This document shows, piece by piece, positions 9,778 to 31,694 of a stretch of 64,000 nucleotides of DNA. The DNA is taken from positions 640,391-704,390 of the forward strand of contig PMTM01000006.1 in the NCBI GenBank assembly GCA_003167365.1, in the 5' to 3' direction. The translations under genes and the position numbers were made by a program. Origin of the DNA: Spartobacteria bacterium. Its GTDB lineage: Bacteria; Verrucomicrobiota; Verrucomicrobiia; Chthoniobacterales; UBA10450. Under the pieces are notes generated by a model. It searched no databases. It saw only the letters and a list, made by a program, of their open reading frames with translations, and was not told the origin of the DNA. Each line of letters starts with the position of its first letter. The stretch's first letter is position 1.

Positions 9778-10656
9778 CTAGAACTGCACGCCAAACAGAG
9801 CAAACAACATTCCGAGTCCGATGATGGCGTAGAGCAATCGATATCGAATCTGGAATCGACTGAGGCTATCCGGGTCGAGCCCATCTCGCAGCGCGCGGAC
9901 TGACCAAAAAATGTGGAGCGGATAAAGGAGAATCGGCAGAAGCGCCAGCGGGCGCGGCACGAACTCGCTTCTGGCCAGAATTAACAGCCAAACATATGCG
10001 AGAGTGAAAACGGCGAGACCCGCCACAAATGTCCGCCGTTTTCCGAACGCGACCGCGTTGGTCTTGAGACGGTTCTGTCGATCGACATCGAAATCACTCA
10101 CTTCATGGTTGAGGTGGCCGGCGGTAAACGTGAGCGCGAAAAATACTGCGATCAGGACGCCGCGTTGATCTAGTGGGCCAAAGAGCGTGTAGCCCAACAA
10201 AAAATGAAATAGCCCACCGAAAAAATGAGCCAGCGAACAAACGATCGGGATGCACTTCCCATTCAAGACCGGGTGCGAATAAAAAATCCCAAGCCCGGCC
10301 GTAATTACTGCCAGCACCAGCGTCGGTCGCGGCAGGAAAGCGAAAAGAATCACGCTCGCGAGCAGAAGCACTAACGAAGAGAGCAGCCGCCGCGGCGGAT
10401 TAGAGTCATCGTTGCCGGTCCGGGCCGTCGCGTTGTTCGAATCTTTTAGAGAACAGGTCTCGGCCCAGTCGTTGAAGGTAAAAATGTGAGCGACGAGCAG
10501 AAAACTGGCCACCACAAAAAGGAGAAACATTCTTAGCTTCTCCGTGGTGACGGCGCCAATCGAGAACGCGACCCCCATGAGAGGCGTTCCCTGGAGAACG
10601 AAAACTTCGTCGTATCGGATGAGTCGAAACAGCGAAATTCGGGGAGATCCGGACAT
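9778..10656 (-). CDS. UbiA-type prenyltransferase / lycopene-elongase-like membrane protein
   Basis: 292 residues with about eight hydrophobic segments. Two polar motifs of the UbiA family face the same pocket: NDWAETCSLKD (62-72) and DFDVDRQNRLKT (about 190). The first lacks the usual second NDxxD spacing, so the motif is a variant. UbiA proteins transfer a prenyl group in the inner membrane to an aromatic or carotenoid acceptor. The adjacent CruF-like gene points to the carotenoid elongase branch (LyeJ/CrtEb-like) more than to quinone synthesis, but this is inference. It lies 19 bp upstream of the FAD monooxygenase gene, probably in one transcript. Confidence 0.8.
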   Translation of the reverse strand: MSGSPRISLFRLIRYDEVFVLQGTPLMGVAFSIGAVTTEKLRMFLLFVVASFLLVAHIFTFNDWAETCSLKDSNNATARTGNDDSNPPRRLLSSLVLLLASVILFAFLPRPTLVLAVITAGLGIFYSHPVLNGKCIPIVCSLAHFFGGLFHFLLGYTLFGPLDQRGVLIAVFFALTFTAGHLNHEVSDFDVDRQNRLKTNAVAFGKRRTFVAGLAVFTLAYVWLLILARSEFVPRPLALLPILLYPLHIFWSVRALRDGLDPDSLSRFQIRYRLLYAIIGLGMLFALFGVQF

Positions 10657-10751
10657 TATTGCTTAAGATATTTTGCTAGGGCTTCGAGAACGACCGCGGT
10701 GGTAAGAGAACTCAACCCGCTTGACGGCTTCGATCTTCAAAATCTTTTCGT

Positions 10752-11618
10752 TTAGAGACGGTTGATCCCGCTGGTTTGGTCTGAGAGTCTCACCCACGCG
10801 ATCACAGCGAATGCGCCCATCACAAAAGCAGAGACCAACGCACAGGCACCGGTGATAGCGCTCACATTCCAAGGCGTGCCCATGGGATCGAAAACCACCG
10901 CTGACACGCGCTTGGGAAGAACAACGATTATGCCTCCCGCGGCGCATAACGCGTAAAAGATTATCGCCCAACGCCAGTAACCGGCAGGCAATGGATTGGC
11001 TGCCGGAAAGCGTCCACGCAAATAAATCGCGAACGACTGATGGACCAGGTAATATACCAAATACAAACCAAGAAAGTTGGTCAGCGGCACGCCAAAATAC
11101 GCTCCGCCCTCCTGCCATACCCATAGCCGATCGATGTTGGCCCAGACCGGATCATTGGCGAGATCCCATGCAATCATGATGAACGCTGCCACCAAAGGCA
11201 GCGTGATGACTCGCGTTCCAACAAGCGGAGATCGCAGATTTCCCAAGATCACCCGACCGAGCGTCCACGAAAGATAGCCCATCCACGCGTAGGCCAAACC
11301 GGCCAGAATCGGAACTTGAAAAAGTTTTGGCCCCATCGCGTCAGTGTAGTAAAAGCGGCCGAATGGGAAACCCGTCGCAACGCCCAAGTTCTCGAAAACG
11401 TTTCCTACGATGAAAGAGATTACAAAGAAGATCAGAATGCCGCGCCGGCCATAAAACATGGCACCATGAATCAGCGCGAAAACGAGCAGTGGAAGCACAT
11501 GGAGCGCGATCACTCCCGCAATAGGCAACTTGCCCGGCAGAATTTGGAGCACGCGTGCCACAGCATAAAGCGACCCCAACATTGCCACACCCGTAAGAGC
11601 CATGAGTCTCGTGTTCAT
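10752..11618 (-). CDS. Carotenoid hydratase-like membrane protein (CruF / DUF422)
   Basis: 288 residues, about seven membrane segments. The stretch FENLGVATGFPFGRFYYTD in the middle is the hallmark of the CruF/DUF422 family, which hydrates the terminal double bond of acyclic carotenoids (1,2-hydratase, bisanhydrobacterioruberin hydratase). The acidic and aromatic residues of that motif sit at a membrane boundary. It is the first gene of a three-gene minus-strand group with the UbiA-like and FAD genes, separated from the UbiA gene by 95 bp. No phytoene synthase or desaturase is in this window, so the backbone would have to be made elsewhere. Confidence 0.85.
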   Translation of the reverse strand: MNTRLMALTGVAMLGSLYAVARVLQILPGKLPIAGVIALHVLPLLVFALIHGAMFYGRRGILIFFVISFIVGNVFENLGVATGFPFGRFYYTDAMGPKLFQVPILAGLAYAWMGYLSWTLGRVILGNLRSPLVGTRVITLPLVAAFIMIAWDLANDPVWANIDRLWVWQEGGAYFGVPLTNFLGLYLVYYLVHQSFAIYLRGRFPAANPLPAGYWRWAIIFYALCAAGGIIVVLPKRVSAVVFDPMGTPWNVSAITGACALVSAFVMGAFAVIAWVRLSDQTSGINRL

Positions 11619-23633: not shown

Positions 23634-23994
23634 AACGATCCATACGGATCGTGCCATAATCCATATTGATCGCGGCACAATTGGCTTTGCGACCCATATG
23701 GATCGCAAAACGAATCATATGGATTAATTTTCGATCCGACCGTTTCACTTTCTGATCCATACGGACGGATTTTCAATCCATGCGGATGCGTTTTTCATCC
23801 ATACCGATCGATTTTCGATCCAACCGGATCAATTTCTGATCCATACCGATCATTTTGCGAAACGCCTCGATCGTTTTCCGATCCATACCGATTAAATTTT
23901 GATCCGTTGCGATCGATTTTTCATCCATACCGATCAGTTTTCGATCCGCATGGATCATTTTGCGATCCATCCCCGAAATTTGGCGATCGCAATC
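23634..23994. repeat. 21-bp GATC-rich tandem array, about 17 imperfect units
   Basis: Consecutive units of 21 bp with plus-strand consensus GATCCATACCGATCGATTTT plus C. Units vary at several positions but keep GATCC at the start and CGATC in the middle. One unit near 23678-23688 is short. On the minus strand most of the array is open in one frame as a seven-residue repeat of the form DRKSIGM, with an ATG at 24066 and a TGA at 23773; the same frame resumes after that stop. It sits between a gene with a strong Shine-Dalgarno and the DUF4268 gene. There is no CRISPR-type constant/variable alternation. Confidence 0.85.
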
Positions 23995-24033: not shown

Positions 24034-25008
24034 ATGGACAATTCCCCTCTCGGACGTCTTGAACAAGTGTCGCTTCGAAGCATTTGGGCGGATGAAGCAG
24101 GTGATTTCACACCATGGCTCGGGAAACCGGAAAACCTCAAGCTCCTAGGAGAGACATTGGGGATTGAGCTTGAACCCGACAGCGAAGAATTTCCGGTCGG
24201 CCCATATTCGGCAGACATTGTTTGTCGGGATACCGCGAGTAGCACATGGGTGTTGATCGAGAATCAAATCGAGAAAACGAATCACATTCATCTCGGTCAG
24301 ATTTTGACGTACGCGGCTGGGGTTGGTGCACAAACGCTTGTCTGGATCTCATCGAAGTTCACCGAAGAGCATCGCGCGGCGTTTGATTGGTTAAACGAGC
24401 ACACTAACGAAGATATATCTTTCTTTGGTCTCGAAATCGAGCTTTGGCGCATTGGCAATTCGTCACCAGCTCCGAAATTTAATATTGTCTCCAAACCAAA
24501 CGATTGGTCGAAGGCTGTTCGGCAGCAGGCTAGCGCAGGCGGTGATCGGCAGATCTCAGAACACAAACGTCTACAATTTGAATTCTGGACCGGGTTCAAA
24601 CCTTGGCTTGAAGAACATACGCGACTCCAGTCGCAAAAGCCTGGCTATCAACACTGGTTAAACGTCTTTCTAGGCAAAACGGGCTTTCACTTATCCTCCA
24701 TTGCCTCTTTGTGGAATACGGAAACGGAGAGTTATGGAGTTCCTGAGTTACGCGTAGAATTTATCTTAAACGGAGTAAGCGCCAAGGATCAGCTGGAGCT
24801 TCTTCGTCGGCGCAGCGAGGAATTTCGGAAACGGATTGATATTCCGCTAGTCTTTCACAACTCGGAGGGGAGCAAATCGTGCAAGGTATATGTCCGTCGC
24901 GATTTTGACTTTCGAGACAACAGTAAGTGGAATGAAGCGTTTGAATGGCTAACGAAGTATCTCCAACTATTTTCCGATACTTTTCGACCCATTATCAATG
25001 CGCTTTAA
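24034..25008 (+). CDS. DUF4268 protein, PD-(D/E)XK-like
   Basis: 324 residues. The ATG at 24034 gives the family N-terminus LGRLEQVSLRSIWADEAGDFTPWL; the longer frame from 23899 begins inside the tandem array and is rejected. Residues 60-78 (ADIVCRDTASSTWVLIENQ) have Asp61, Glu76 and Gln78 in the spacing of PD-(D/E)XK enzymes with Gln in place of Lys. The C-terminal half is the DUF4268 domain. The gene converges with hsdR with only 12 bp between stops. Location beside the type I system suggests a defence-related nuclease-like role, which is inference. Confidence 0.8.
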   Translation: MDNSPLGRLEQVSLRSIWADEAGDFTPWLGKPENLKLLGETLGIELEPDSEEFPVGPYSADIVCRDTASSTWVLIENQIEKTNHIHLGQILTYAAGVGAQTLVWISSKFTEEHRAAFDWLNEHTNEDISFFGLEIELWRIGNSSPAPKFNIVSKPNDWSKAVRQQASAGGDRQISEHKRLQFEFWTGFKPWLEEHTRLQSQKPGYQHWLNVFLGKTGFHLSSIASLWNTETESYGVPELRVEFILNGVSAKDQLELLRRRSEEFRKRIDIPLVFHNSEGSKSCKVYVRRDFDFRDNSKWNEAFEWLTKYLQLFSDTFRPIINAL

Positions 25009-25020
25009 AATCGAAGCAAT

Positions 25021-27327
25021 TTAGGCCGCGCGGTCATATAGATACTTTTGAAATTCGGCGAAAACTCTCCCGATTTCCTCGGGCTTCCCTAGATCAGCGA
25101 CCGCATCGGCGACGGAGTTATGGTACTTAAGGCGAAGCAACGGCGTAAGCTTTTCTTGCGCGAGTTCATCGACGCCGACCTTCACGTATTGCGAGAGAAC
25201 GAAGTCGAGGAAGACCTGTTGTTTGCTATTGAAGTGAGTGCTGATCTCAACCTTTGCCTTCGTCGCACGTTCCGCGCGGCTAAGTGGAGGCAGCGCGTAA
25301 GCCACATGTGCGAGCACATCGAAGAGGTCGCTGTTCTCTGCGTTGATGATCTTCTGCATCTCTGCCATCTGATCTCGGCCGAAGCCTTTTTCTGCAAGAC
25401 CGTGCAATAGCTGTGCGCGCGTGTCGGGCGCACTCCAGAGATTTCGGAGCTCGTCTTCGTTCTGAAAGAACTCGGGGAGCTTTCCAAAAAGCATTTCCAT
25501 GAACTGCTGAGCAGACATCGGTGTGCCGTCCGGATGCCAGAAGCTTGTCATCATCATGTGCTGAATGGTGCGTTCTTTGCCGTCGGCCAGCTTCACTTTG
25601 ATTTTAGTCTTCGGCGGCGGTGGCGGGTTGGGCCCGGGATCGGGCGCGATAGGTGGTCTCGGACCCGTCGGTTCTGGATCGAGCGGTTCGCCGTCCCATT
25701 CCGGATCGCTGAAATGAAGATGTGCCTTCACGAAATCGTAGATCGTGAAGTAATCCTTCCCGTCGTGAAGCCGCGTGCCGCGTCCGATGATCTGCTTGAA
25801 CTCAAGCATCGAGTTAATCGGACGCATCAGTACGATGTTCCGGATGTTGCGGGCGTCCACGCCGGTGGAGAGTTTTTGCGACGTGGTGAGAATGGTCGGG
25901 ATGGTTTTTTCGTTATCTTGAAAATCGCGCAGATGCTGCTCGCCCAGCGCGCCGTCGTCGGCGGTGACCCGTTGGCAGTAGTTCGGGTCTTTGCTCGTCT
26001 TCATCTGGTTGATTAGATCGCGCACGACCATCGCGTGAGCTTGATTCGCGCAGAACACTAACGTCTTCTCGTTCTGGTTAATCTGCCCCATGAAAATCTC
26101 GACGCGCTTCTTCTCCCGTTCCTTGATCTCGATGATTTTGTTGAAATCCGGCTCGTCGTAAAGTTTTCCGGCCTCTACTTCCCCCTCCACCACCGTGTCG
26201 TCCGGCGTATAGACGTAGTAATCCAGTGTGGTTTGAATCTGCTTCACCTTAAACGGCGTGAGGAAACCGTCGTTGATGCCTTCCTTGAGCGAATAGACAT
26301 ACACCGGCTCGCCGAAATAGCGGTAGGTGTCCACGTTCTCATCGCGCTTGGGCGTGGCCGTAAGACCGAGTTGCACGGCTGGCGCAAAATAATCCATGAT
26401 GCCGCGCCAGTTGCTTTCGTCATTCGCGCCGCCGCGATGACACTCATCAATGACGATGAAATCGAAAAAGTCGGGTGGATACTCGCCGAAGTAAGGCGAC
26501 GGTTTGCTATCCTTCGGCGGGCCGCTCATAAAGGTCTGGAAGATCGTGAAGAAGATACTTCCGTTGGTCGGAACGCGTTCCCTTCGCCGAATCTCATCTG
26601 GGGAAATCCGCACCAGCGCATCTTCTGGGAAAGCGGAAAAGGCGTTGTAAGCCTGATTCGCCAAAATATTCCGGTCGGCGAGAAATAAAATGCGCGGACG
26701 ACGTGAAGGCTCGCGGCTCAAGTTCCAGCGCGAGTGGAAAAGTTTCCACGCGATCTGAAACGCGATGAATGTCTTGCCTGTGCCGGTCGCGAGCGTGAGC
26801 AGAATCTTCTGACGATTCTCCGCAATGGCCTCCATTACTCGCTCGACGGCGATGTCTTGGTAGTAGCGACTCGGATGCGAACCGCCCTTGTCCTCAAATG
26901 GAATTGTGGCGAAGCGGTCGCGCCAAGCGTCAGCTTCGGCGAACGTCATTTTCCAGAGTTCGTCCGGCGTGGGGTAGCGCATGATGTCATCCCGCTCCTT
27001 GCCCGTCTCCATGTCTATGCCGTAGATGCCTTTTCCATTGGTGGAATAGGTAAAACGGACGGCGAGTTTTCCCGCGTAGTTCTTCGCCTGCGCCACGCCC
27101 TCGGAGACTTCTTCATCCCACGTCTTGGCTTCGACGACGGCGAGCTTGGTATTGCGATATTCAAGAACGTAATCCGCCGTGAGAGCTTTGCCGCGCTTGC
27201 CGTGGCCCTCGATGCGACCGGGCACAATCGAATACTCCCGCCGAATGCGACTGCCCTCGACGATGCCCCAGCCCGCCGCTTTCAGCGCGGGATCAATATG
27301 CTCGGCTCTGGTCTCGGCTTCGTTCAA
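25021..27327 (-). CDS. hsdR: Type I restriction enzyme R subunit
   Basis: 768 residues, the short EcoEI-like class. N-terminal nuclease core: Asp52, Glu66, Lys68 (ADYVLEYRNTKLAVVEAK). Superfamily 2 translocase: TGTGKT (181-186), DECH (294-297), and the motif VI region with IIGRGTRLHDGKDYF. The C-terminal region contains a proline-rich linker (about 570-585) followed by the HsdM/S-contacting domain. It uses ATP to pump DNA and cut at a distance from the target. It is the last gene of the minus-strand order hsdM, hsdS, HEPN-like, hsdR. No frameshift is visible, so the enzyme looks intact. Confidence 0.95.
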   Translation of the reverse strand: MNEAETRAEHIDPALKAAGWGIVEGSRIRREYSIVPGRIEGHGKRGKALTADYVLEYRNTKLAVVEAKTWDEEVSEGVAQAKNYAGKLAVRFTYSTNGKGIYGIDMETGKERDDIMRYPTPDELWKMTFAEADAWRDRFATIPFEDKGGSHPSRYYQDIAVERVMEAIAENRQKILLTLATGTGKTFIAFQIAWKLFHSRWNLSREPSRRPRILFLADRNILANQAYNAFSAFPEDALVRISPDEIRRRERVPTNGSIFFTIFQTFMSGPPKDSKPSPYFGEYPPDFFDFIVIDECHRGGANDESNWRGIMDYFAPAVQLGLTATPKRDENVDTYRYFGEPVYVYSLKEGINDGFLTPFKVKQIQTTLDYYVYTPDDTVVEGEVEAGKLYDEPDFNKIIEIKEREKKRVEIFMGQINQNEKTLVFCANQAHAMVVRDLINQMKTSKDPNYCQRVTADDGALGEQHLRDFQDNEKTIPTILTTSQKLSTGVDARNIRNIVLMRPINSMLEFKQIIGRGTRLHDGKDYFTIYDFVKAHLHFSDPEWDGEPLDPEPTGPRPPIAPDPGPNPPPPPKTKIKVKLADGKERTIQHMMMTSFWHPDGTPMSAQQFMEMLFGKLPEFFQNEDELRNLWSAPDTRAQLLHGLAEKGFGRDQMAEMQKIINAENSDLFDVLAHVAYALPPLSRAERATKAKVEISTHFNSKQQVFLDFVLSQYVKVGVDELAQEKLTPLLRLKYHNSVADAVADLGKPEEIGRVFAEFQKYLYDRAA

Positions 27328-27344: not shown

Positions 27345-28253
27345 TCACGACCAAGTAATGGTGGCCCAGCATGGGTGAACACCGAGCAACGATTCCAAAT
27401 CCTGCCTTTGCGCCGAGGGGACGGCGAGTCCTCGATTTGTGATACATTTTTGCAAGAAAGCGGCGGTCGCGCATGCGAGCCAGGTCGTAATTTCATTGGC
27501 CTCGGCACCGAGTATTCGAAAAACCGCAATACCTAGGTAATTCTTGGCTGGGTCAATCACTTCTCCTACGGCAATTTGAAACTTCAAGCGCTTGAACTTG
27601 GAGGCATCCCCTTCCGTAACTAGACCATTGTTGTGTGATAGCGTGTGCCTGATTTGAAAGATTGCGCGCAGCGCTTTGACCCGGTCGGCTACAGTCGATT
27701 TAGGCGCGTTCTGGTTGTAACGCCTGTCTTCCACAAGCATGTGCAAGCATTTGTCTACTGCTTCCAGGTCATGGAAGAGGCTTTGTTCAAACATCAATGC
27801 CGGTGCGCTGATCTGGCCAGCAGTCGACCACACCAACGGAGCATCAATCTTGATATCTCTGAACGCTTCTGGTTGAACGTAATCGCGAAGGAGTGTGCCG
27901 AGGCACACCAGGGTTTTTTTGTAAAACGACTCGAAGGCATTGATCGCTTCGAGCAGAACCAATTGCTCAGCATACCAGCGATACTTCACAAATGTTGCCT
28001 CCTTCGCACCAGTTGGTCCTTTGCCTTTGGATTGTTTTCCAAGACGGCGGACTTCGTTTTTGAGTTCGACAATTACCACGTGGCGCCGATCCACCCAGTC
28101 GAGAAAATTCTCCTGATGCTTCAATAAATCTCGAAACTCTTCAAGTGGACTGCCCTTAATGTTGGCAAGGTGACGAACCTCTTTGCTTGAACTTGTTTCA
28201 ACAGCGGTTCGCTTTTCAAATGAGACGAAGTTTTTAGCGCCTTTGGTTCTCAT
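27345..28253 (-). CDS. HEPN-like protein inside the type I R-M operon
   Basis: 302 residues, mostly helical, no membrane segment. The central helices LVLLEAINAFESFYKKTL and RVKALRAIFQIRHTLSHNNG contain Arg202 and His207, an R-x4-H motif of the kind that forms the active site of HEPN RNases. The segment after it (LVTEGDASKFKRLKF) fits a HEPN C-terminal helix. It lies 17 bp upstream of hsdR and 18 bp downstream of hsdS, so it is part of the transcript. PrrC and RloC are HEPN anticodon nucleases linked to type I systems, but this protein lacks their ATPase domain. Family assignment is moderate and rests on the motif and context. Confidence 0.6.
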   Translation of the reverse strand: MRTKGAKNFVSFEKRTAVETSSSKEVRHLANIKGSPLEEFRDLLKHQENFLDWVDRRHVVIVELKNEVRRLGKQSKGKGPTGAKEATFVKYRWYAEQLVLLEAINAFESFYKKTLVCLGTLLRDYVQPEAFRDIKIDAPLVWSTAGQISAPALMFEQSLFHDLEAVDKCLHMLVEDRRYNQNAPKSTVADRVKALRAIFQIRHTLSHNNGLVTEGDASKFKRLKFQIAVGEVIDPAKNYLGIAVFRILGAEANEITTWLACATAAFLQKCITNRGLAVPSAQRQDLESLLGVHPCWATITWS

Positions 28254-28271: not shown

Positions 28272-29510
28272 CTAGAGATTCCCGGTGAAGGCTTGGTGCA
28301 GTAGCGACTTTTTCAACGCCTCCAGCGCTGCGAGCTTGTGCTCGTAGAGGGTGGCGAGGCGTTGGCCATTCTCAAATAGACCATCGAGTGCCCCGATGAT
28401 CCGCTTCTGCTCATCAAGCGGCGGAATCACATGAAAGAATTCGCGCTGCTTCGTGATGGGCACCTGATTTCGCGTGGATTGCCGCATCACCTGCAAATAC
28501 TGCGTCTTAAACCCGAACGACCTCATGTAGTGGGCAAGATATTCCGGCAGAATGTGCTTTGGATTACAACGGTAGTAGGTAAGCGAAGTGCCGAGAATGA
28601 TCTTTTCTTCATCCGTGTGAAGAATGGCAACAGGACCGACGGTAGCGTTGTGTGCGAAGAGCACATCGTTGTCCTTGGCGATCCCCTTTCGAAGCAGCGC
28701 GGCTCGACTTAGTGAGAGATACTTTGCGCGAGACATGTCAACTCGCTCGTCGTCTAGGCAGTTCGCAGAAATGTAGGGAACGCCTTCACTGATGAACTCT
28801 TCCTTGCGGGGATAATCGCTTCCATGGTTGCCGTCCAAATGACTTTCAATCCATCCACGTTCCAAGAGTGTCTCCAGCGTTACTCGGTCCCATTCCTTCC
28901 CGCGCTGGGTGAACACGGATTGGAGGTGGCTTTCGAAGAGGGCACGGGCGTTTTGGAGGTTCTTTTCGGCGTTGATCTTGGCGGTGGCGATGCCGTCAAA
29001 CGCTTCGTCAATGATGCCGATGATCCGCTGCTGTTCAGGGAGGGGCGGGACGGGAATCGGGTAGCTTTCAATAAACTCCCTCGAGACACGCTTGTGCCCG
29101 ACAGCGCCCGACATCCTCGCCGCGCCTTCGACTAGGAAAGTTTCGCGCGATAAGTAATAGTAGAGCCATTCACTGCTGAGCATCTTGTCGGGGCGGAATA
29201 CGATGTATTCGCTAGACCCGAAGCCGATTCCATTGGTCAGCCCTTCAGCAATCCCAAGCTTTCCGTTTTCGAAGCAGGGCGTAATTTTCGCGAGAAGAAC
29301 ATCGCCATCTGCGAAGTAGGTGTAACTTCCTGCGACTGCGGATAGCGGCTTCGCTTGAATCGCTCGCACAAACTTCTCGCCGATGCCCATGTCTTCCATC
29401 GGCAGAAACGAGACCAGTTCATCAACGGAGACTCGGTCGCGAGCTTCGCTTTTCGGCGGCTTAATCTGGCACGCTTTGTCCAGCGTCTGCGATTGCCACC
29501 CTTTTTTCAT
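28272..29510 (-). CDS. hsdS: Type I restriction-modification specificity subunit
   Basis: 412 residues with two target recognition domains. Each is followed by the conserved helix: PLPEQQRIIGIIDEAFDGIA (about 155-175) and PLDEQKRIIGALDGLFENGQ near the end. This gives the usual TRD1-spacer-TRD2-spacer layout recognising a bipartite site. The start ATG overlaps the hsdM stop by four bases (ATGA). The recognition sequence cannot be inferred. Confidence 0.95.
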   Translation of the reverse strand: MKKGWQSQTLDKACQIKPPKSEARDRVSVDELVSFLPMEDMGIGEKFVRAIQAKPLSAVAGSYTYFADGDVLLAKITPCFENGKLGIAEGLTNGIGFGSSEYIVFRPDKMLSSEWLYYYLSRETFLVEGAARMSGAVGHKRVSREFIESYPIPVPPLPEQQRIIGIIDEAFDGIATAKINAEKNLQNARALFESHLQSVFTQRGKEWDRVTLETLLERGWIESHLDGNHGSDYPRKEEFISEGVPYISANCLDDERVDMSRAKYLSLSRAALLRKGIAKDNDVLFAHNATVGPVAILHTDEEKIILGTSLTYYRCNPKHILPEYLAHYMRSFGFKTQYLQVMRQSTRNQVPITKQREFFHVIPPLDEQKRIIGALDGLFENGQRLATLYEHKLAALEALKKSLLHQAFTGNL

Positions 29511-30964
29511 AGCAGCGCTTTGATGTTCACAAGCACTTCAGCGCTCTCGGCGTCCAGCGCTGCGATTTCGACCATGATTGTTTCCGGGCTGCGGTGTGCG
29601 ATTTCCCGGCCGCCGTTCGGATTTTTCACGCCGAGGTCGAAGGTCGTCTGGTCAATACTCTTGGTGGCCACGCTCCAGCTCTTGGGCGAGTCGGCGTAGG
29701 TTGCGTGCAGCTTTACGAACTCGGCAAGGTCGGCGTCATTGAGTGGCTTGGTTTTGCCGAGGTTGCGGCCGGGGTCGAGTTGGTAGAACCAAACTTTACG
29801 TGTGGGTGCGCCTTTCTCGAAGAAGAGCACTACGGTTTGCACGCCGGCACCGGTGAATGTCATCCTGGGGCAGTCGAGCACGGTGTGCAGGTTGCAGCTT
29901 TCCAGGAGGAGCTTGCGCAGGCTCACGGAGGCGTTGTCGGTGTTGGAGAGGAAAGTGTTCTTGATGATCACGCCGCCACGCCCGCCGGCCTTGAGAATTC
30001 TTATAAAGTGCTGGAGGAACAGGAAGGCGGTCTCGCCGGTGCGGATGGGAAAATTTTGCTGCACTTCTTTGCGTTCCTTACCGCCGAAGGGCGGATTGGC
30101 TAGCACCACGTCGTAGCGGTCCTTTTCCTGAATGTCGGCGAGGTTTTCGGTGAGCGTGTTGGTGTGGATGATGTTTGGCGCTTCGATGCCATGCAGGATC
30201 ATGTTCATGATCGCGATGACATAGGCGAGTGGCTTCTTTTCCTTGCCGTAGAAGGTGCGCTCTTGCAGGGTCTTATCCTGCTTCGTGGTGCGGTCCGGGT
30301 TTCTCTTCCGCAGATAATCGAAGGATTCGCAAAGGAAACCGGCGGAGCCGCAAGCGCCGTCGTAGATTCGCTCGCCAAGTTTTGGCTGCACGACCTGGAT
30401 GATCGCGCGAATCAGCGGACGCGGAGTGTAATACTCGCCGCCGTTGCGACCGGCGTTTCCCATCCGCTTAATTTTGTCTTCGTAAAGTTGCGAGAGTTCG
30501 TGCTTCTCGGTTTGCGAACGAAACTGCAACTCGTCGATGTGGTCGATGATCTCGCGAAGATTGTAGCCGCTCTGAATCTTGTTCTTAATCTCGCCAAAGA
30601 TTTCGCCGATTTTGTATTCGATTGTATTTGGTCCAGTCGCCTTTTGTTTGAAGGCATGGAGATAGGTGAAAAGCTTCTGATTAACAAAATCCCGGAGATC
30701 GTCGCCGGTCATCGCCTTGTTGTGATCAAGTTTCCCGTCTTTGCCTTTCGGCGCGGCCCACTTCTCCCAGCGATACGGCTCTTCGAGAATGAAGTTGTAT
30801 TTGCGACCTTCTAGCTTCGCTTCAGTCGCGCGATCCTCCTCTAATCCGTCGAGGTACTTCAGAAAGAGCAGCCAGGAACTCTGTTCGACGTAGTCCAGCT
30901 CAGTAGTGCAGCCGGCTTCTTTCCGAAGAACGTCGTCGATGTTCTTAAAAGCTTGTTCAAACAT
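29507..30964 (-). CDS. hsdM: Type I restriction-modification methyltransferase subunit
   Basis: 485 residues. N-terminal helical HsdM domain (1-140), then a SAM-binding N6-adenine methyltransferase core: DGACGSAGFLCESF (motif I, about 206-219) and VVLANPPFGGKE (motif IV, NPPF type, about 288-299). It modifies one adenine in each half of the HsdS site. First gene of the operon; the leader 30965-31142 is a word array. Confidence 0.96.
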   Translation of the reverse strand: MFEQAFKNIDDVLRKEAGCTTELDYVEQSSWLLFLKYLDGLEEDRATEAKLEGRKYNFILEEPYRWEKWAAPKGKDGKLDHNKAMTGDDLRDFVNQKLFTYLHAFKQKATGPNTIEYKIGEIFGEIKNKIQSGYNLREIIDHIDELQFRSQTEKHELSQLYEDKIKRMGNAGRNGGEYYTPRPLIRAIIQVVQPKLGERIYDGACGSAGFLCESFDYLRKRNPDRTTKQDKTLQERTFYGKEKKPLAYVIAIMNMILHGIEAPNIIHTNTLTENLADIQEKDRYDVVLANPPFGGKERKEVQQNFPIRTGETAFLFLQHFIRILKAGGRGGVIIKNTFLSNTDNASVSLRKLLLESCNLHTVLDCPRMTFTGAGVQTVVLFFEKGAPTRKVWFYQLDPGRNLGKTKPLNDADLAEFVKLHATYADSPKSWSVATKSIDQTTFDLGVKNPNGGREIAHRSPETIMVEIAALDAESAEVLVNIKALL

Positions 30965-31142: not shown

Positions 31143-31694
31143 TTAGGAAGGCTTAAATCCAATGCGAGGCTTGGGCGGCGGAAGCGGCACAGCCGGCGGA
31201 TCAATGACATCCATTACGCGTTGAAGAATCGTGACGATGGTCGCTTCATGCACGTTGAGTCGTTGTTTTAATTCTTTTTCCAAGGCGGCAAGTTTTTTTG
31301 CCAGTTCCCCTTTGTCACCGAGCAATGCTCGCATTTTCAGAAACGCTCGAACGACGAAAACCGACATCTGCACCGCCCGTCGGCTGTTGAGGACGTTGGC
31401 GGCCATGATCGCGCCGTGTTCGGTGAAAACGTAAGGCCGTTTGCGCCGCCCGCCGTGGCGCGAACTTGATATCGCAAATTGCGATATCAAGTGGGTGAAT
31501 TCCTCACGCGTAAGCTGGAACATGAAGTCTTTGGGGAAACGTTCGCGATTGCGTTTGACGGCCTCGTTGAATCGAAACGTGGGAATGCCGTAGATCGCGG
31601 CCAGGTCGGAATCTAACATGACGCGTTGACCGCGGATTTCGTATATGAGTCGGCCGAGGGAATCGGTGGTGAGCTTGTTCGGGGGTGTTGCCAT
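31143..31694 (-). CDS. ORF6N domain DNA-binding protein
   Basis: 183 residues. The N-terminal ORF6N domain is clear: LIYEIRGQRVMLDSDLAAIY, FPKDFMFQLTREEF, then a conserved GRRKRPYVFTEHGAIMAANVLNS. The C-terminal helix (ALLGDKGELAKKLAALEKEL) may dimerise. Such proteins are phage- or plasmid-derived regulators. The codons for SQFAIS fall in a 29-base palindrome at 31465-31493. The gene is bracketed by word arrays with ATTAGGAAGG units on both sides, like the four-helix genes. Confidence 0.85.
   Translation of the reverse strand: MATPPNKLTTDSLGRLIYEIRGQRVMLDSDLAAIYGIPTFRFNEAVKRNRERFPKDFMFQLTREEFTHLISQFAISSSRHGGRRKRPYVFTEHGAIMAANVLNSRRAVQMSVFVVRAFLKMRALLGDKGELAKKLAALEKELKQRLNVHEATIVTILQRVMDVIDPPAVPLPPPKPRIGFKPS
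31465..31493. repeat. Perfect palindrome inside the ORF6N gene
   Basis: Two 14-base arms flank a single central A, with core TCGCAAATTGCGA. The same core recurs in a palindrome at 40221-40243 next to a four-helix remnant. Confidence 0.8.

Follow-up and report, generated by a model that had tools for sequence, protein, structure and literature searches.

Type I restriction-modification (R-M) operons sometimes carry a further gene between hsdS and hsdR, and the locus studied here raises the question of what such a gene encodes and whether it works under the control of the restriction enzyme around it. An earlier note on the window (the whole 64,000-nucleotide stretch of DNA analysed) had proposed that the extra gene, here called X, encodes a HEPN-like RNase acting as an abortive-infection effector, silenced by the type I enzyme and released when restriction is inhibited. 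We examined the gene, its predicted fold, its relatives and the equivalent position in related operons.

Gene X lies within an EcoAI-type restriction operon

The operon is a type I R-M system in which hsdM, hsdS and hsdR are all intact. It forms a minus-strand run of four genes (hsdM, hsdS, X, hsdR), flanked on both sides by candidate defence genes:

31143..31694, minus strand, ORF6N-domain gene, PADLOC candidate PDC-S05, upstream of hsdM
29507..30964, minus strand, hsdM, N6 adenine methyltransferase subunit (PF02384, 5.9e-61; HsdM_N)
28272..29510, minus strand, hsdS, specificity subunit (PF01420, 4.4e-19; PADLOC Specificity_I)
27345..28253, minus strand, gene X, 302-residue HEPN-like protein, 302 codons from ATG, third gene of the operon
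25021..27327, minus strand, hsdR, EcoAI/FtnUII-type restriction subunit (NF046051, 828 bits against a cut-off of 550)
24034..25008, plus strand, DUF4268 gene, PADLOC candidate PDC-S11

X is an intact open reading frame, placed between hsdS and hsdR as the earlier note had it. Its ATG start is backed by relatives whose N-termini read MPRTxGAxN, and the possibility that X is an antisense artefact was ruled out, as the relatives confirm the minus-strand frame. The gaps on either side are short (18 bp from hsdS to X and 17 bp from X to hsdR), which suggests that X is co-transcribed with the restriction genes. Its GC content of 49.6%, against 54-56% for hsdM, hsdS and hsdR, is consistent with an arrival separate from theirs. 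Residues 1-32 (window positions 28158-28253) contain a conserved R-x2-G-x2-N-x3-F-x2-R segment, predicted to be disordered (pLDDT < 50), that resembles basic RPKGSKN-type nucleic-acid-binding tails.

The surroundings bear out part of the suggestion that this region is a layered defence island, with the type I genes, X, the PDC-S11 candidate and the ORF6N/PDC-S05 gene gathered within about 8 kb. The DUF4268 gene does adjoin hsdR, as had been described, but is encoded on the plus strand and convergent with it. Its likely start is the ATG at 24034 rather than the mechanical open reading frame start at 23899, because similarity to the PADLOC models begins near residue 49. An imperfect tandem array with a period of 21 bp (42, 63 and 84 bp also scored) occupies positions 23722-23970, upstream of and overlapping that mechanical start. 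The array is probably intergenic; read on the minus strand, it would give a GMDxKxI-like heptapeptide repeat.

X carries two conserved HEPN-type motifs

HEPN proteins are defined by an Rx4-6H motif with N, D or H following the arginine, often accompanied by an upstream Ex3[KR] motif, within an architecture of two helical hairpins and an insert between the second and third helices (PMC3710099). X has both sequence features:

27918..27932, minus strand, codons of E108-x3-K112, matching the second HEPN motif Ex3[KR], invariant in 7/7 sequences
27633..27650, minus strand, codons of R202-H203-T204-L205-S206-H207 (RHTLSH), the R-x4-H motif, R in 7/7 and H207 in 6/7 sequences

The R-x4-H motif thus lies at residues 202 and 207, where it had been reported, and the prediction that this pair would be conserved among homologues held in an alignment of X with six full-length relatives (n = 7). 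R202, H203, T204, L205, S206, N208 and G210 were invariant, and position 207 was histidine in all but one sequence, a relative from a virus contig (L003) with asparagine. The two most conserved stretches of the protein were residues 201-210, which hold the R-H motif and form the top ten-residue block (column entropy 0.23 bits), and residues 101-110, which hold E108 (0.26 bits); most other stretches ranged from 0.9 to 1.6 bits. Some R-x4-H motif also appeared in 42% of shuffles of X, and one with a polar N, D or H after the arginine in 5%. A bare motif is explicable by chance, and it is conservation that makes the 202/207 motif meaningful. A second motif in X, R-D-x3-H at residue 41, was unconserved.

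The predicted helix order fits a HEPN fold

An AlphaFold2 model built from six sequences (pLDDT 71.7, pTM 0.71) was almost wholly helical, in agreement with the earlier description, and was best defined over residues 190-302, where ten-residue mean pLDDT was 83-91. Its predicted long helices are H1 (36-71), H2 (81-125, holding E108), H3 (189-208) and H4 (237-274), with short helices filling the insert between H2 and H3. At this level of model confidence (pLDDT 72), the order matches the canonical HEPN arrangement, and the R-H motif lies at the end of the last but one of the four long core helices (H3), as had been proposed.

Fold searches against the PDB returned generic helical-bundle matches for both this model and a weaker first model built from three sequences (pLDDT 57), and Foldseek found no significant PDB match. 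HI0074 (1jog) matched the weaker model only, at a level that chance can produce for helical bundles (Z 7.7, rmsd 3.7, 114 residues), and the match did not recur with the better model. No HEPN entry appeared among the VIA-align matches listed for the better model, a silence that is not evidence of absence. Among BFVD entries, matches were to the uncharacterised phage proteins A0A8S5NVI2 (E 9.9e-4) and A0A8S5LJP3 (E 0.053).

Scans of Pfam, NCBIfam, PADLOC and PHROGs gave no model matching X. When all seven family members were compared with Pfam and PADLOC at E 10, only weak unrelated families appeared, each for one member, and the Pfam HEPN models matched none of the seven. PDB sequence searches with the X protein and with a four-member profile gave no match, nor did a profile comparison of the X family with HEPN_RiboL-PSP, represented by just three divergent proteins. 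Divergent HEPN families often escape sequence and profile searches (PMC3710099). Judged on its motifs and modelled helix order, X probably belongs to the HEPN superfamily; the assignment is unproven, since the fold searches gave no confirmation. Of the earlier case for a HEPN-like RNase and a HEPN fold, motif conservation, the E-x3-K motif and helix order stood up, and an independent fold match did not materialise.

Relatives of X occur outside type I operons

The six full-length relatives share 40-44% identity in the alignment and occupy varied contexts. L001, from Halorhodospira abdelmalekii, is preceded by genes for a ThsB-type TIR protein and for a small hydrophobic one; downstream lie an OLD-like ATPase-TOPRIM gene and then genes for a DNA methylase and for a ResIII helicase, in an arrangement like that of type III mod/res. 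L003, L004 and L013 are on virus contigs. The first lies between apparent structural and terminase genes of a 37-kb contig; L004 stands alone on a contig that by eye carries integrase, repressor and phage-like recombination genes; and L013 is near an apparent prophage edge with an ATPase gene alongside (by eye). The two genomes carrying L011 and L012 belong to the phylum of the L001 genome. Also by eye, L011 lies in an island that has an IS30-like transposase, and L012 lies next to dnaE. None of the six was surrounded by a type I operon.

Two neighbouring proteins were noted in passing. The R-x4-N relative (L003, 5995-6885) is followed by a 260-residue protein that has no family match and looks nuclease-like by eye, and near L011 a 192-residue protein (10338-10916) contains a further R-x4-H motif, RNALAHN, and matched nothing in Pfam at E 0.01.

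The family is rare. In 387 genomes of the phylum and 197 of the order, X turned up in the genome described here alone, and three of 398 genomes carried it in a second phylum, that of L001, whose own genome is included. Neither X nor the L004 relative had a match in plasmid and phage records.

The slot before hsdR holds variable cargo

A set of HsdR orthologues covering 174 genomes of the phylum was assembled. In nine genomes with close orthologues, we inspected what precedes hsdR:

G122 (HsdR identity 77%), Bro-N gene
G155 (73%) and G014 (70%), zinc-ribbon protein, weakly similar to the 23S rRNA-IVP bundle
G098 (73%), DUF429 and RhuM
G082 (72%), TPR protein and NucS/PD-(D/E)XK-like nuclease
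G086 (71%), HTH-ImmA and PIN/DUF4411, with an apparent RhuM fragment before them
G205 (63%), G210 (58%) and G123 (52%), empty between hsdS and hsdR

X was found in none of these nine slots (0/9), a decayed copy was sought in the G122 slot and not found, and no hsdS was seen on the G086 contig. The expectation that the same gene would recur between hsdS and hsdR elsewhere was therefore not realised, either among the six relatives or in the nine genomes with close hsdR orthologues. Variable slot contents have been described before: enteropathogenic E. coli (EPEC) carries darTG2 between hsdS and hsdR, four other genomes carry another gene pair there, and the slot has been proposed as a potential recombination hotspot (PMC12255303). 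Further genes were seen by eye at the hsdM-hsdS junction of three relatives, KilA-N-like in L046, DUF1016-like in L052 and encoding a 190-residue helical protein in L045, suggesting that cargo is accepted at both operon junctions.

X as a probable RNase effector carried by the operon

We consider X to be probably a stand-alone HEPN-type RNase, with a likely anti-phage role, carried as cargo in the known hsdS-hsdR insertion hotspot. X would be a metal-independent endoribonuclease, probably dimeric, whose active site would comprise R202, H203 and H207, helped by E108 and K112. It may stay latent until infection relieves that latency, whereupon cellular or phage RNA would be cut and growth arrested. 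The gene would move as single-gene cargo that settled in the slot of an EcoAI-type operon and came to be co-transcribed with the restriction genes, so that its position would amount to co-expression with restriction.

That X is instead a helical protein, HEPN-like or other, that binds nucleic acids but is devoid of RNase activity, such as a regulator or accessory subunit, appears fairly unlikely. The outcome of the fold searches, the R-x4-N of L003 and the conserved, predictedly disordered N-terminal R-x2-G-x2-N segment would fit such a protein; against it, six of seven sequences have the histidine and no block is more conserved than the motif, as is typical of an active site.

We also judge it unlikely that X is a PrrC-like guard, an RNase silenced by the HsdMSR complex and freed by a phage anti-restriction protein that disrupts restriction. 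X shares the hsdMSR operon with short gaps, PrrC sits in and is held by a type IC operon (PMC3874165), and similar control has been suggested for further HEPN genes linked to R-M systems (PMC3710099); gating of this kind is conceivable for X on these precedents. Against it, the relatives lie outside type I operons, several of them alone in phage-like contigs, the slots of close hsdR orthologues hold other genes or nothing, and X has no NTPase sensor. The occurrence of relatives without type I genes, and of related type I systems without X, disfavours a dedicated partnership, and the released-effector model of the earlier note loses ground on both counts. With a sample as small as six relatives, a guard role at this one locus retains some chance. 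The simpler reading is nevertheless that X acts autonomously and is carried as cargo.

A more specific version, in which X is a minimal, NTPase-less HEPN RNase gated by the type I complex and firing on restriction inhibition, its relatives being wired to TIR, OLD or type III sensors, seems distinctly unlikely. Were X gated by HsdMSR, it would be the PrrC principle in its simplest form. It is highly improbable that X is a phage-derived gene with a phage function (counter-defence or host takeover) captured by the operon: three of six relatives are in phage-like contigs, but one lies in the TIR/OLD/type III cluster, X itself is inside a host restriction operon, and defence genes on prophages are common (PMC9122126).

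HEPN genes in R-M operons are already known, having been catalogued in 2013 in at least 16 clades (PMC3710099), and toxin-type cargo between hsdS and hsdR has likewise been published. The new element here is a rare family of sequences with no model in Pfam, NCBIfam, PADLOC or PHROGs. With X, the known candidates for RNase effectors gain an unannotated, HEPN-like family of single genes, and the cargo slot before hsdR is now seen in another lineage, with RhuM, PIN/ImmA, Bro-N, nuclease/TPR and zinc-ribbon contents.

Comparison with known systems

The MNT-associated HEPN protein HI0074 bears a weak structural resemblance to the first model of X only and differs in context, as no nucleotidyltransferase gene adjoins X. 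The gene for PrrC is likewise placed between hsdS and hsdR. The prrC gene of the EcoprrI type IC locus also resembles X in combining a HEPN-type R-H active-site motif with a location inside a type I operon (PMC3874165, PMC3710099). PrrC differs in its N-terminal ABC NTPase, which senses nucleotides, and in being a documented partner of its R-M enzyme, whereas relatives of X were not found in type I operons. We ruled out X as a member of the PrrC/RloC group, since no N-terminal ABC-type NTPase domain was found; the earlier note was correct on this point, and 302 helical residues leave no space for one.

Solo HEPN genes of R-M operons include ApeA, AbiU2, AbiJ solos, pEK499_p136 and Abi2/AbiF/AbiD (PMC3710099). 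These resemble X as stand-alone helical proteins with an Rx4-6H motif in R-M operons or islands; X matches none of their Pfam models and is, as far as tested, a separate sequence family. The darTG2 module in the type I operon of EPEC (PMC12255303) is a two-gene toxin-antitoxin pair with another chemistry, whereas X is a single gene without a visible antitoxin; it is nonetheless a toxin-type defence module that shares with X the slot between hsdS and hsdR.
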